A stretch of DNA of 45,994 bases from an uncultured Celeribacter sp. Lineage in GTDB: Bacteria > Pseudomonadota > Alphaproteobacteria > Rhodobacterales > Rhodobacteraceae. Position numbers and translations under genes: made by a program. Positions 2,758-45,994 of this stretch are shown piece after piece; position 1 is the stretch's first letter, and the number at the start of each line of letters is the position of its first letter. The stretch lies in the NCBI GenBank assembly GCA_938008015.1, contig CALLMA010000007.1, positions 1 through 45,994 on the forward strand, given 5' to 3'. The notes below the pieces were generated by a model. It was given only the letters and a program-made list of their open reading frames with translations, was not told the DNA's origin and made no database searches.

Positions 2758-4104
2758 TTAGCTCATATTGGCATCAAGCCATTTTTCAAGCCAATGAATG
2801 TTGTAATCACCAGTTTGAACGTCTTCCTCTTCCAAGAGCGCGTGGAAAAGGGGCACCGTTGTATCGACGCCATCAACGATCAACTCACCAAGAGCGCGCT
2901 TCAAACGGGCAAGCGCCTCAGCACGATCACGACCATGGACAATGAGTTTGCCAATTAAGCTGTCGTAATAGGGTGGAATTGAATAGCCTGTGTAAAGCGC
3001 ACTATCCATTCGCACACCAAGGCCGCCAGGGGCGTGATATGCTGTGATCTTGCCAGGGCAAGGTGAGAAGTTTGGAAGCTTCTCAGCATTGATTCGAACT
3101 TCAATGGAGTGTCCGTTGATTTCGAGATCATCTTGCGAGAAAGATAACTTATTCCCAGCAGCAACACGGATTTGTTCGCGAACAAGGTCTTGTCCGAAGA
3201 TCGCTTCAGTAACAGGGTGTTCTACCTGCAAACGCGTGTTCATTTCGATGAAATAGAACTCACCATCTTCATAAAGGAATTCGATTGTACCAGCGCCACT
3301 ATAGCCCATTTCCGCAATCGCATTGGCGCAGATGTCACCAATTCTTTTGCGTTCTTCAGCTGTAATAGATGGACCTGGCGCTTCTTCGAAGACTTTCTGG
3401 TGACGACGTTGCAAGGAGCAATCGCGTTCACCAAGATGAACACCACCGCCTTGGCCATCGCCGAAGACCTGTATTTCGATATGGCGCGGTTTTTGGAGAT
3501 ATTTCTCCATATAAACCTCATCATTGCCGAATGCAGACTTCGCTTCAGAACGGGCCGTGCGGAAAGCAACCTCGAGGTCATCGCGTGATGTGGCAACTTT
3601 CATGCCGCGTCCGCCACCACCTGCAGTCGCTTTGATGATCACAGGGTATCCCATGTCATCTGCGAGCTTGAGCGCTTCTTCAACTGTCGCAACACCGCCC
3701 TTTGAACCTGGTACAACTGGGATACCAAGCTTTTCAGCCGTGTCTTTTGCGGTGATTTTGTCACCCATTTGTGAAATATGCGCAGCAGATGGGCCAATAA
3801 ATTTAAGGCCATGCTCTTCAACAATCTCAACAAATTTTTGGTTTTCTGAAAGAAAACCGTAACCTGGGTGGATTGCTTGTGCACCCGTAATTTCACAAGC
3901 TGCAATGATTGCAGGGAAATTAAGGTATGATTGAGCGGATGAATTTGGACCAATGCAGATCGCTTCATCAGCCATACGGACGTGCATCGCATCGGCATCC
4001 GCTTCGGAGTGTACTGCAACAGAAGCAATACCAAGCTCACGACATGCGCGGATGACGCGCAATGCGATCTCGCCACGGTTAGCTATAAGGATTTTATCGA
4101 ACAT
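2758..4104 (-). CDS. accC: Biotin carboxylase subunit of acetyl-CoA carboxylase
   Basis: A 448-residue ATP-grasp enzyme that carboxylates the biotin of AccB using bicarbonate and ATP, the first half-reaction of fatty acid synthesis. Visible motifs: N-terminal [16 protein letters not shown], the glycine-rich ATP-binding loop [12 protein letters not shown], the active-site stretch [16 protein letters not shown], and [14 protein letters not shown] with metal-binding Glu and catalytic Arg. Length matches the family (about 447-450). It follows accB by 10 nt on the same strand, the classic accBC operon. Confidence 0.98.
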
Positions 4105-16653: not shown

Positions 16654-16742
16654 CTTAATATTTCATTTATGTTTATAAATTTTCTATTCAAGTAGGCGAG
16701 AATTTTTTTTGTTAGCAAAATGATCATTGAATTTTCAAAGGG

Positions 16743-41742: not shown

Positions 41743-44646
41743 TCAGCCGATTTGTGCGAGGCGTTCAAGAGCGGCATTAATTTTCTGCTCTTCTTCTTCA
41801 CGCGCTGCTAAATTCTCCTTCGCTTCCGCAACGACCTCTTCAGGTGCCGATGCAACAAACTTTGGATTGTTTAACCTGCCGCGTAAACCGCCAAGCTCTT
41901 TCGCCAATTTCCCTTTCGCCTTTTCTAGGCGTGTTTTTTCTTCAGCAATATCGATCACACCTTCAAGCGGAATAGCAAATACGCCGCCAGCCACAGAGAT
42001 CGTGATGGCGCCTTTTGGCATGTCACCCGCGCTCAGGCTTTCCACGCGCGCGAGCTTTTTGATCAAAGCTTCATTATTTGACCAAGCATTTTGGCCCGCT
42101 TGATCAAGCTCCACTTGTACCATATGTACTTTAAGCCCTGCAGGCACGCGCACTTCTGCACGAGAGGAACGAATGGATTCGATGAGTGAAATGACCCAGT
42201 TCATCTCTTTATCGGCGCCTTGATTGACCAGCTCATCACCATATTCAGGCCAATCAGCATGAGCAATCATTTTAGGACGATTGGAATTAATATTGCTCCA
42301 AAGTTCTTCAGTGATGAACGGCATGATTGGGTGCAACATGATCAAAGCTTGATCCAATGCCCAACCCATCGTTTGGCGCGTTTCTGCCAATGTTGCTTCA
42401 TCTTCTGAATAGAAAAGAGGCTTTGAAAACTCGACATACCAATCACAAAATTGGCCCCAAACGAATGCATAAAGTGCATTTGCCGCATCATTGAAACGGT
42501 ACTCGGAAAAGGCTTTGTCCACTTTTTGGCGCGTCTTTGCAACTTCGCCTATAATCCATTTGTTGAGCGTTGCATTTGGCGCTGGCAATTCATTTGGATT
42601 ATAGTTTTCAAAAACGCCATTCATTTCCGCAAAGCGTGCCGCATTCCATATTTTGGTTGTGAAATTGCGGTAGCCTTTAATGCGATCGACTGAAAGCTTC
42701 AAAACGCCGCCGATGGAGGCCATGGAAGCATTGGTGAAACGCAGCGCATCAGCCCCAAATTCATCGATGATTTCAAGCGGATCAATCACATTTCCAGTGG
42801 TTTTGGACATTTTCTTGCCCTTTTCATCTCGCACGAGCTCATGCAGATAAACTGTATGGAATGGAATTTGATCCATGACAGCAAGTTGCATCATGATCAT
42901 GCGTGCAACCCAGAAGAAAAGAATATCTTGGCCAGTCACTAGAACATCAGTTGGAAAATGCCTCGATGTGCTTTCATCCCATGTGGGCCAGCCCAATGTG
43001 CCAATTGGCCACAGACCAGATGAGAACCACGTATCTAACACATCAGGATCGCGTGTTAGAGATTTCCCGCCAGATTTTTTGATGGCTTCTTCTTCAGTGG
43101 TGGCGCAATACTGATTGCCGTCCTCATCATACCATACTGGGATTTGGTGTCCCCACCATAATTGACGAGAAATGCACCAAGGTTCGATATTCTCAAGCCA
43201 ATTATAGAATGTTTTCTCGCCGCTCTCTGGCATGATTTTGATATCACCAGATCGCACCGCTTCGAGTGCAGGGCCGGCAAGCTTTTGTGCATCAACATAC
43301 CATTGATCCGTTAGCATTGGTTCCATAACCACTTTAGAGCGGTCACAAAAGGGCTGCATGATAGGTTTGTTTTCAACATATGGAACTGTTTCCGTTATCT
43401 CGGTTTCATTCCCATCTTCATCTTTGATCTTTTTTGTGACTTGATGTGTGACCGCAAGCCCTTCAGCTGTAATATCCGCAATAACTTTTTTGCGTGCCTC
43501 AAAGCGATCCAGCCCTCGATAATCTTCAGGGACAAGATTGAGTGCATCTGTTTCTGCGATCGTTAAGTGACGTTCTCCGCGAGAAACGGCTGCGGCAATC
43601 TTGGCGTCTTGTTCGTAGCTCTCACCATCCGAGCGCATAGATGCTTTTGTGTCCATCAAGCGATAAAGCGGTATGTTATTGCGCTGAGCTACGCCGTAAT
43701 CATTTGCATCATGGGCGCCTGTGATTTTCACAGCACCAGAGCCAAATTCTGGATCAGGATATTCATCTGTTATAATTGGGATGAGGCGGCGATGCTCTTT
43801 AGGGCCGACTGGAATTTCACAAAGACAGCCGATGATAGGGGCGTAGCGCTCATCATCTGGGTGAACGGCAACCGCACCATCGCCGAGCATAGTTTCTGGG
43901 CGCGTGGTCGCAATCGAGATATAATCTCTTTCCTCACAGAGGGTTACATTCCCATCTTCATCTTTTTCGATATAGGTATATGTTTTACCATCGGCGAGCG
44001 GGTATTTGAAATGCCACATGTGGCCAGGCGTCTCAATGTTTTCGACCTCTAGGTCTGAAATCGCTGTTTCAAAATGCGGATCCCAATTGACCAATCGCTT
44101 GCCGCGGTAAATCAAACCTTTTTCATGGAGCTCAACAAAAACTTTGATCACCGCATCATGGAAATTGCCTTCTTCACCTTTTGGAGCATGAGGAGCACCC
44201 GACATTGTGAAAGCATTGCGCTCCCAATCGCAAGAAGAGCCAAGGCGCTTGAGTTGGTTGATTATTGTTGAGCCATATTGGCCCTTCCAATCCCAAACGC
44301 GCTCAAGAAATTTCTCACGCCCCATTTGCGCCCGTGTCGGTTCGCCCTTTGCGGCGAGATCTTTTTCGACCATAAGTTGGGTCGCAATCCCTGCGTGGTC
44401 TTGGCCAGGTTGCCAAAGCGTATTGTATCCGCGCATGCGGTGCCAGCGAACAAGTATATCTTGAATAGTATTGTTGAATGCATGGCCGACATGCAGAGCG
44501 CCCGTGACATTCGGTGGCGGGATCATGATCGTAAAAGTTTCTTCTTTGGAGCTGTTCGCGCCTGCTTTGAATGCCCCAGTATCTTCCCATGCCTTATAAA
44601 GACGTGCCTCTGCTTCATGAGAGTCGAAAGTTTTTTCCATCGCCAT
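41743..44646 (-). CDS. valS: Valine--tRNA ligase
   Basis: A 967-residue class I synthetase. [13 protein letters not shown] holds the HIGH-type motif (HVGH, 52-55). The KMSKS motif reads KMSKT at 612-616, a tolerated variant. The CP1 editing domain lies between. A tRNA-binding helical domain and a C-terminal coiled coil (about 890-960, with [18 protein letters not shown]) complete the protein. I chose the ATG at 44646 because AAGGA lies at good spacing upstream; ATG 44673 and ATG 44640 are alternatives. Its upstream neighbour is the truncated tRNA-Leu, so valS is the last core gene before the inserted region. Confidence 0.97.
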
Positions 44647-44785
44647 TTTTGCGATCCTTGCCACTTGTTTCAATTATTGTGGCTTTTGTAGCTTGCAGAG
44701 CTTTGAAGGGGAAGGGTGAAATAAAGCAATATCTTCCATTCATTGAGTTAATGAATGTAGAAATTGCAATATTTGAGAATATTTA

Positions 44786-44845
44786 TGGTACCCGTGGGCG
44801 GACTCGAACCGCCAAGGCCGTGAAGCCGGGGGATTTTGAATCCCA
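44786..44845 (-). pseudogene. tRNA-Leu(CAA) 3' fragment, candidate attachment site of an integrated element
   Basis: On the minus strand these 60 nt read as the 3' part of a class II tRNA: 3' arm of the anticodon stem with loop TTCAAAA (anticodon CAA), long variable arm, T-arm GGCGG-TTCGAGT-CCGCC, acceptor strand CACGGGT, discriminator A and an encoded CCA. The matching acceptor strand (ACCCGTG), D-arm and start are absent upstream. The anticodon stem pairs for four of five pairs (TGGGA against TCCCC), so identity with a real tRNA seems to stop at the stem. This is how a site left by a tyrosine recombinase crossing over near an anticodon loop looks. By itself it cannot make a tRNA. Confidence 0.85.
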
Positions 44846-44941
44846 ACAACAGAATTACAAAACAATACATTAGCCGCTTTTGGTCCAAAGGACAGACCGA
44901 AAACAAAGGGCGAATGTTTGACCAGAAGAAAGAGGTTATTC

Positions 44942-45442
44942 ATGGCTCACGTTAAGGAAAATTTTTGTAAGGCACAAAGGTCTTGCTTAATCAAAAATGC
45001 TGGCTTTGACGTGTTTGATTCTGGGCAATGCTTAGGCGCTGTAAGAAAAAATGGGATGGCCATCCAGTACGTTATTAACCAAACTCCAGAGATTTGTTTG
45101 GCTGCGGTTAAAAAGAGCGGGATGGCCTTGCAGCATGTCCGGTCTCAAACTCATGACATTTGCATTGCTGCAATTAAAAGCAACAGAGGTGCAGCGCTAC
45201 AATTTGTTCGGCATAAGTCTCCTGCGATATGCTGGGAGGCAATAAGCCAAAATGGCATGTCGCTTCAATACATACAAACGCAAACTCATGCGCTTTGCCT
45301 AAAGGCTATTCATCAAAACGCATTAGCTATTCAGTATGTTCGCAACCAAACTCCCGATCTATGCGCTGCAGCTTTCAAGCATAGCCCGAGATCTGCAGCA
45401 TTCATACGCATTCCTATGCCTGACCTATTTAAGGAGATTTGA
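44942..45442 (+). CDS. DUF4116-like tandem-repeat protein
   Basis: A 166-residue protein made mostly of six tandem units of about 22 residues (30-162). The pattern is C-x2-A-[VIF]-x3-G-x-A-[LI]-Q-x-[VI]-x-x-Q-T-x-x-[IL], e.g. CLAAVKKSGMALQHVRSQTH. The repeats resemble DUF4116 and related 'QTPEIC' repeats, which stack as short helices. Function is unknown in that family; binding of a partner protein is a guess. I chose the ATG at 44942 because AAAGAGG lies 6 nt upstream; an in-frame ATG 24 nt earlier lacks support. First gene inside the inserted region. Its last codons form the ribosome-binding site of the next gene. Confidence 0.8.
   Translation: MAHVKENFCKAQRSCLIKNAGFDVFDSGQCLGAVRKNGMAIQYVINQTPEICLAAVKKSGMALQHVRSQTHDICIAAIKSNRGAALQFVRHKSPAICWEAISQNGMSLQYIQTQTHALCLKAIHQNALAIQYVRNQTPDLCAAAFKHSPRSAAFIRIPMPDLFKEI
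45029..45427 (+). repeat. Six coding repeats of 66-69 bp
   Basis: Units begin at the Cys codons for residues 30, 52, 74, 97, 119 and 141 of the protein. Five are 66 bp and the third is 69 bp (one inserted residue). Units 1, 2 and 5 are most alike; unit 6 is the most diverged. DNA identity between units is moderate, so the array is old rather than freshly expanded. Confidence 0.85.
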
Positions 45443-45453
45443 AGATGGCTAAA
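45427..45453 (+). repeat. Gene-junction motif, copy 1 (Shine-Dalgarno, stop, start)
   Basis: The end of the repeat-protein gene encodes Phe-Lys-Glu-Ile-stop. The same bases supply AAGGAG (45431-45436) for the next ATG at 45445. 26 of 27 bases match copy 2. Confidence 0.85.
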
Positions 45454-45696
45454 GAAGAATGGTCCGATATCAAAGCTGCCTATAAGGAAAAATTCCAAGA
45501 AGACAAAGCGCGATTTCATGCCGATGCAAAAAGAGCGGATGATGGCAACTGGGTGAAGCACACGGAGTGGCACTGGTCCAGAAATGTGAACGGGGAGAGG
45601 CTAGATTACTGGCCCTCACGTAAAAAGTTCCAGTTTCGAAATAAGACCCGCAGGGGTGATATCTACGCATTCATTAAAGCATTTAAGGAGGTTTGA
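45445..45696 (+). CDS. Small accessory protein of unknown function (83 aa)
   Basis: An 83-residue charged protein. The N-terminal half is a Lys/Glu/Asp-rich helix (3-33); the C-terminal half holds aromatic residues in the order HTEWHWSRNVNGERLDYWPSRKKFQF, then RGDIYAFIK. The 'WHWS–GERLDYWPS–K-F' stretch reminds me of small proteins from phages and plasmids, but I cannot name the family. No membrane segment. Start is the ATG at 45445, 8 nt after AAGGAG and 2 nt after the previous stop. A TTG 6 nt earlier is in frame but unlikely. Confidence 0.75.
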   Translation: MAKEEWSDIKAAYKEKFQEDKARFHADAKRADDGNWVKHTEWHWSRNVNGERLDYWPSRKKFQFRNKTRRGDIYAFIKAFKEV

Positions 45697-45707
45697 AGAT
45701 GGCTAAA
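45681..45707 (+). repeat. Gene-junction motif, copy 2
   Basis: The preceding gene ends Phe-Lys-Glu-Val-stop. AAGGAGG (45685-45691) serves the ATG at 45699. Differs from copy 1 by one base over 27. Confidence 0.85.
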
Positions 45708-45884
45708 TTTTACGTTGAAGACGAATACGCAATTAATTTAAAAAGCGTCGCTGCCGTATACCCAAGCGAATTGATCAGATATGCTTATATCATAGAATTT
45801 AAACCTAAGAAATGCGCCGAGACATATATCTCAGTGCCAGATCACATAGGCGAAGGCGTACTTGAAGCGCTTAAGGAGATTTGA
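45699..45884 (+). CDS. Small accessory protein of unknown function (61 aa)
   Basis: A 61-residue protein without signal peptide or membrane segment. It looks like a small alpha/beta fold: strands around KFYVEDEYAINL, AYIIEFKP and ETYISV, then a C-terminal helix GEGVLEALKEI. No family recognised. Start at the ATG at 45699 with AAGGAGG upstream. It ends Leu-Lys-Glu-Ile-stop, and that end forms the next ribosome-binding site. Confidence 0.7.
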   Translation: MAKFYVEDEYAINLKSVAAVYPSELIRYAYIIEFKPKKCAETYISVPDHIGEGVLEALKEI

Positions 45885-45890
45885 AGATGG
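45871..45890 (+). repeat. Gene-junction motif, copy 3
   Basis: Same arrangement as copies 1 and 2: TTAAGGAG, TTTGA stop, then ATG at 45887. Here the ATG is followed by GAT instead of GCT. Confidence 0.85.
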
Positions 45891-45994
45891 ATACACAAAA
45901 AATAAAAGTGACACCCGTATTTGCTATTGTATGGGAGAAGAGAAAAGGGGGCCACTCGTTCGCCCAAGAACCAAGGTTCGGTGGCGGTCAAGCC
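45887..45994 (+). CDS. Start of a further small accessory gene (3' truncated by the window)
   Basis: 36 codons are visible and open to the edge. The peptide begins MDTQKIKVTPVFAIVWEKRKGG and continues with a Gly-rich stretch. The start is fixed by AAGGAG at normal spacing and the 2-nt gap to the previous stop. No family recognised from so short a piece. Confidence 0.65.
   Translation, partial: MDTQKIKVTPVFAIVWEKRKGGHSFAQEPRFGGGQA

Follow-up and report, generated by a model that had tools for sequence, protein, structure and literature searches.

A tRNA-Leu(CAA) 3' fragment beside valS as the probable far junction of a phage-like element in an uncultured Celeribacter

The Islander survey of tRNA-gene islands puts the number of islands having 3' fragments at 3,760 and of those whose sites are anticodon-centred at 2,083 (PMC4383910). 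In mycobacteriophages of the Omega type, the target is a tRNA-Leu, used from the anticodon loop, and the arm repeats are paired (PMC3706429). Prophages in tRNA genes, including tRNA-Leu, have been reported in Rhodobacteraceae (PMC8224337), and Sinorhizobium prophages are found in tRNA-Leu(UAA) (PMC12429752). According to work on mycobacteriophages, an attP with five mismatches still rebuilds the tRNA, and the same source describes tRNA-dependent lysogeny, in which the host tRNA is not rebuilt and the phage supplies its own (PMC10865867). Because the signature has already been described in Islander, in Omega and in rhodobacterial and Sinorhizobium prophages, we regard the insertion described here as most likely a fresh instance of a well-known kind of integration event.

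In this study, the window is the whole stretch of DNA analysed, which is the entire contig C7 (G000:C7, 45994 bp) of a draft genome of an uncultured Celeribacter sp. whose bin holds 2.01 Mb in 137 contigs and is 85.7% complete. On its minus strand, from 44844 to 44786, lie 59 nt that form the 3' part of a tRNA-Leu(CAA). They extend from the anticodon stem through the CCA end, and no 5' half precedes them; the anticodon CAA was read by eye at 44838-44836 and the CCA at 44788-44786. The first-pass annotation, made from the letters of the window, had placed such an orphan 3' half at 44786-44845. The tRNA-Leu 3' half is indeed present, and only base 44845 is one too many, the end being at 44844. 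The claim that the piece runs from anticodon stem to CCA and lacks its 5' half was borne out, as the 59 nt align to a complete gene with E=3.2e-19. The fragment is real and not a chance match, and the sequence 5' of it bears no relation to a tRNA when aligned with the complete gene on contig C91. ARAGORN and Rfam made no tRNA call in the whole window, and Rfam gave no tRNA at E<=1 within 44500-45994, which is expected because only half a gene is there. Housekeeping genes stop at the fragment, as the annotation had said, with valS to the left and no housekeeping gene recognised among the genes to the right (Table 1). Since the window is a whole contig, 1,150 bp of sequence follow the fragment on its right.

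Table 1. Features at the right end of the window and the basis on which each was assigned
Feature	Coordinates	Strand	Basis
valS, host flank, first gene after the fragment	41743..44646	-	start inferred from relatives; mechanical frame begins at 44673
tRNA-Leu(CAA) 3' part, putative distal attachment junction and displaced end of the original target gene	44786..44844	-	55/59 identical to G000:C91:16527-16613
Outer end of the putative integrated element, cut by the contig end	44845..45994	.	window = contig G000:C7
Candidate integrase arm-type site TCTGGTCAAACATT, distal arm, 69-82 nt inside the fragment	44913..44926	-	12-nt core and 14-nt shared string
Putative element gene, 166 aa, DUF4116 repeats	44942..45442	+	Pfam PF13475, 4.5e-15; relatives in 4 phage records
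Putative element gene, 83 aa, phage-type protein	45445..45696	+	31 viral-contig loci; 4 phage records; 0/393 other family genomes
Putative element gene, 61 aa, no family	45699..45884	+	reading frame; family searches
Putative element open frame, cut by the contig end	45887..45994	+	sequence reading, family searches

When the fragment was searched against its own genome, one other match was found, at C91 16555-16613, covering exactly the same 59 nt (E=3.2e-19), and ARAGORN called a complete tRNA-Leu(CAA) at C91:16527-16613. The two sequences are identical at 55 of 59 positions, and all four differences fall in the variable arm. By eye, two of the four swap one stem base pair (GGC/GCC to GCC/GGC), so that both versions can form the variable arm. 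A tRNA-Leu(CAA) query of the same genome matched only the C91 gene and the window fragment. Beside the complete tRNA lies a tyrosine integrase frame on the minus strand (C91 16696-17127), cut by the contig end at 17129, convergent with the tRNA and with its stop 82 nt past the CCA. PF00589 matches at C91:16762-17127, and the visible catalytic residues R, HxxR and Y are in place; at the R, H, R and Y positions, 43 or 44 of 44 aligned relatives, some of them mutually identical, have the same residue. The window had led to the prediction of an intact tRNA-Leu(CAA) sharing this 3' part, accompanied by a tyrosine integrase; both are present on C91 in the same genome, and the orientation is as predicted. 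A reading made from the letters of one contig was settled by a prediction that could have failed, namely a matching complete tRNA with an integrase on another contig.

We believe, with a probability of roughly 0.9, that a phage-like element was integrated by a tyrosine-recombinase crossover in the anticodon region of the host tRNA-Leu(CAA); the exact crossover point we infer. The attP of the element would have carried its own copy of the tRNA 3' part, and such a copy leads to a gene rebuilt at one end and a host 3' part displaced. The tRNA would have been rebuilt at the C91 end from the host 5' half and the element 3' half, followed by the integrase gene, whereas the original 3' part of the host gene would have been pushed to the far end, where it would now be the 44786-44844 orphan, valS following 139 bp downstream and the element lying to the right of the orphan. 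Both junctions, oriented in this way on their contigs, the integrase and the shared arm-type motifs are present in the assembled sequence. The claim of the annotation that the fragment is the edge of an integrated element is supported by the tRNA and integrase on C91, the motifs, the synteny, a genus-mate example and the habit of the integrase family.

Like the islands described by Islander, this locus has a tyrosine integrase adjoining the complete tRNA and would have a rebuilt tRNA with a displaced 3' fragment and an anticodon-region crossover (site A); unlike those islands as described, it has its ends on two contigs (PMC4383910). The cassette of mycobacteriophage Omega and Cluster J, as its report presents it, is similar in its tRNA-Leu target, its anticodon-loop core about 100 bp past int and its direct-repeat arm sites, but its host is actinobacterial and its arm sites are two pairs of 10 bp, whereas here two candidate arm repeats lie on the integrase side and one was seen on the far side, with a 13-bp period and a different spelling (PMC3706429). 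The four differences between fragment and tRNA are comparable to the five mismatches described for a mycobacteriophage attP (PMC10865867). Prophage phi-D of Sulfitobacter sp. CB-D, a temperate roseophage, likewise occupies the 3' end of a tRNA-Leu; its report gives a 15-bp repeat, and the prophage is likened to our locus by description and not by repeat sequence (PMC7305329). We also considered tRNA-dependent lysogeny, and rejected it because a complete tRNA stands beside the C91 integrase.

Evidence that C91 and C7 flank one element came from short motifs and from gene order. The 46-kb window has a single copy of the 12-nt string TCTGGTCAAACA, which lies at 44915-44926, immediately inward of the fragment (0.01 expected). 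Contig C91 has two tandem copies, at 16669 and 16682, between the tRNA and the integrase (0.01 expected); all copies on C7 and C91 point in the direction of the tRNA. The longest string common to both element-side flanks is 14 nt, a length reached in 0 of 2000 single-letter shuffles. In all four relatives' loci compared (G005, G007, G011 and G014), the genes IMPase-LysR-metF-DUF2235 precede valS, and C91 carries the same four genes in the same order and orientation. On the other side of the balance, some 9 kb of genes separate DUF2235 from the tRNA on C91, and of these only GFA was found in the four relatives' loci, in one of the four. From synteny and arm motifs, which suggest the order of the 3' fragment across the contigs, we infer that C91 and C7 are joined through one element. 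A search of the C91 and C7 ends for overlaps in the own bin, including the last 100 bases of C7, gave no matches and did not recover the middle of the putative element, a point against the continuity of C91 and C7. A draft bin in 137 contigs also gives some ground for an assembly or binning artefact, in which the junction of fragment and valS would be chimeric or the right end of C7 foreign; we give this hardly any credence, since the junction is built like an attachment site, its arm-type motif is spaced as in relatives, and the cognate tRNA and integrase are present in the own genome.

It is also conceivable, though unlikely, that C91 and C7 are separated by two or more elements in a tandem array in one tRNA gene, the fragment then closing the last of them and the C91 integrase being part of the first. 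Next to the same tRNA-Leu(CAA), Pseudooceanicola spongiae (L113) has a tandem pair of integrases of the same family that are separated by a 3' fragment, and Islander lists such arrays, 125 of them with two or more (PMC4383910). Against such an array, the presence of one 12-nt motif at either end points to a single integrase specificity, although tandem elements related to each other might have it in common. The case illustrates how an orphan tRNA end can serve to match contigs and to reveal that a mobile element is missing from a draft assembly.

The valS neighbourhood was scanned with ARAGORN in 29 relatives' loci (19 from the genus, 5 from the family and 5 from the class; 11 further valS-bearing genomes lay outside the scan). 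In none of the 29 was there a tRNA within about 1.5 kb of valS, no empty site was found, and none of the tRNA-Leu matches in relatives' genomes adjoins the scanned valS genes. In three genus-mates read at length (L089, L094 and L097), tRNA-Leu(CAA) lies within about 3 kb of gyrA, recognised by eye. With the gene elsewhere in the genus-mates read, its place in the own genome is itself unusual. DUF6456 and tRNA-Leu(CAA) were considered as a conserved pair and rejected, as the pair is absent from the 1.5-kb flanks compared and DUF6456 sits elsewhere in relatives. These results leave a small chance, which we consider very low, that the C91 integrase has nothing to do with the fragment, which would instead be an old scar left by a rearrangement or by an element that has decayed or is a different one: no tRNA lies beside valS in the relatives scanned, the gene order around the tRNA is not conserved, and genus-mate G005 has a short frame of the family integrase, open over 156 aa, next to its tRNA-Leu(CAA), which means that remnants exist. 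A scar of that kind is opposed by the arm motif common to both ends, the valS-neighbourhood genes on C91, the high identity of fragment and complete tRNA, and the open phage-type genes directly beside the fragment. The annotation had named a complete tRNA-Leu(CAA) elsewhere with no matching insert, or the fragment and the right-hand genes conserved here in distant relatives, as arguments against an insertion; these were looked for and did not appear, the fragment being at this place in none of the relatives examined. In a genus-mate, a 56-nt tRNA-Leu 3' piece, 84% identical, was seen at G001:C2:472573-472628 and is possibly the scar of another insertion.

The genes to the right of the fragment were compared with viral and phage sequences. 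The DUF4116, 83-aa and 61-aa genes and the cut frame are closely packed. Relatives of the 83-aa protein were found at 31 viral-contig loci and in four phage records, which represent three distinct phages, and in 0 of 393 other genomes of the family at E<=1e-6. The DUF4116 protein also has relatives in four phage records (three distinct phages; best 46.6%), with no pattern match in IMG/VR, and no second DUF4116 gene was found in the own bin. Judged by these matches, the outer genes look phage-derived, and one of them, at 45445-45696, occurs mainly in phages. No capsid, terminase, portal or tail gene is present in the assembled ends of about 1.15 kb and 0.5 kb. With an integrase and phage-type genes, a prophage would be the likeliest reading of the element; an integrative element or a satellite is possible instead. 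In 33 viral loci with relatives of the 83-aa or the DUF4116 protein, namely the 31 with the 83-aa gene together with the phage stretches L146 and L147, no integrase of the family was found at E<=1e-5 among frames of at least 100 aa. The string AAGGAGRTTTGAAGATGG occurs three times, at the packed-gene junctions 45431, 45685 and 45873, which are near-identical, with a presumed ribosome-binding site within the last codons of the preceding gene. On the viral contig of L154 (10398-11628), a relative of the 83-aa gene is followed by an integrase-like frame, recognised by eye, and then by a tRNA-Leu(TAA) 5' half ending past the anticodon stem; this may be a version of the same target in which the fragment is a 5' one.

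Relatives of the C91 integrase are encoded at 44 loci in named genomes, 42 of which, by their record titles, belong to genera that we take to be Rhodobacterales. At 36 of the 44 loci, the matched integrase end is followed within 200 nt by a complete tRNA-Leu (21 CAA, 8 TAA and 7 TAG), and in 35 of these 36 the tRNA is convergent with the integrase, the exception being L135. In L101, L119, L123 and L129, the tRNA-Leu is 0.8-6.3 kb from the integrase; L115 and L136 have a tRNA-Leu fragment only, the tRNA of L130 is cut by the contig end, and in L118 no tRNA-Leu was found near the family integrase. In the genus group, with the own genome excluded, 8 of 10 integrase matches stand beside a tRNA-Leu (1 CAA, 2 TAA and 5 TAG) and 2 do not. 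In genus-mate G007, a tRNA-Leu(TAA) with its integrase is followed, 16,348 bp on, by the last 54 nt of the tRNA, identical, and G007 is therefore a complete same-genus example of the whole architecture over 16.3 kb. Fragments of tRNA-Leu inward of the integrase are also present in L113, L121 and L137. At the IMG/VR integrase loci L010-L017, a tRNA was found in 0 of 8, and 7 of these 8 contigs break off at the stop of the integrase. The tRNA-Leu(TAG) of L135 (2996-3080) and the fragment of L136 (5162-5214) are on the same strand as the integrase, an alternative arrangement of the TAG clade.

Tandem repeats past the CCA were examined at 38 convergent tRNA-integrase loci, consisting of 35 named-genome loci, G005, G007 and C91. 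In 29 of the 38, a 7-nt string is repeated at a period of 12 or 13 bp within the first 115 nt past the CCA, compared with 0.67 loci on average and at most 4 in 200 rounds of dinucleotide shuffling; the loci are related to each other and so are not independent. In the control, 1 of 18 genus tRNA-Leu(CAA) genes without a family integrase has such a repeat. Genus-mates G005 and G007 are among the 9 loci without it. The first copy usually starts 55-63 nt past the CCA (exceptions at 37, 70, 76 and 80), and at 54 in C91. At the far junctions of G007, L113, L121, L137 and C7, a string like that of the integrase side starts 80, 83, 76, 82 and 82 nt inside the fragment, respectively; it is only 6 nt in G007 and 7 nt with one mismatch in L137, and because these strings were chosen by eye, the two short ones alone prove little. 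L121 and L137 hold inverted copies as well. These repeats fit candidate arm-type sites, to which the integrase would bind. Exact searches of IMG/VR with the arm repeat and with the 3' string of the fragment itself gave 0 matches each.

An integrase tree was built from 45 integrases, 33 of them labelled by isoacceptor; four labels rest on a tRNA 0.8-6.3 kb away (L101, L119, L123 and L129), and those of L136, the second L113 integrase and Pan4 rest on a fragment only. TAG forms one clade, and the three labels need 7 changes (least possible 2), compared with a shuffled mean of 12.5 and with no value as low as 7 in 200 shuffles. These counts indicate that isoacceptor use is clustered, yet has switched several times. 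The C91 row fills only 40% of the alignment columns, and its position (93/90) carries no star. We are inclined to think that the family is specialised on leucine tRNAs and has repeatedly moved among CAA, TAA and TAG, keeping the anticodon-region crossover, the attP 3' half and a fixed arm geometry. As part of the same somewhat favoured reading, this geometry would consist of two direct repeats at a 12-13 bp period on the integrase side and one copy 76-83 nt inside the far junction (n=5 junctions, two by short strings), and the spelling of the repeats would drift between lineages. If this is true, the family offers a natural series for how tyrosine integrases change target and arm specificity. 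The switching among leucine tRNAs is the most interesting by-product of this study, and the family, thanks to its changes of isoacceptor and its arm repeats, can serve for comparative work on target choice. No description of an integrase family that switches leucine isoacceptors was found in the open literature searched, which does not prove its absence from print.

The nearest phage example is of the same integrase family. Pseudanabaena phage Pan4 (ON968455) has a 54-nt tRNA-Leu(TAA) 3' half beside its integrase, 89% identical to the query used, and the C91 part of the integrase is 55.7% identical to that of Pan4. In Pan4 the tRNA-Leu 3' half is at attP, and in the Rhodobacterales loci L099-L142, also of this family, a complete tRNA-Leu generally lies by the integrase, with tandem repeats past the CCA in most of those examined. 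Unlike the element in our window, Pan4 has a copy of TAA type and not CAA.

Some further observations concern the family and the own genome. Two more tyrosine recombinases lie about 8 kb apart in the own genome (G000:C31 1998-2510 and 10189-10701), perhaps belonging to another element. The integrase of L108 (JAHVJD010000002.1, titled Nocardioides marinus) stands beside a tRNA-Leu(TAA) and, among the Rhodobacterales integrases, groups tightly with that of prophage contig L013; mislabelling or contamination of the record is possible. Phages Pan4, Mae-JY02 and Mel-JY03 (L143-L145) are recorded as cyanobacterial, and their integrases are nested among Rhodobacterales ones; the tRNA-Leu 3' half of Pan4 is Rhodobacterales-like, and the true host of these phages may be an associated bacterium. 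In Microcystis phage Mae-JY02 (L144 14172-14257), the integrase is directly followed by a complete tRNA-Leu(TAA) that runs the same way and is not convergent with it, and this phage is a candidate for tRNA-dependent lysogeny with this integrase family.
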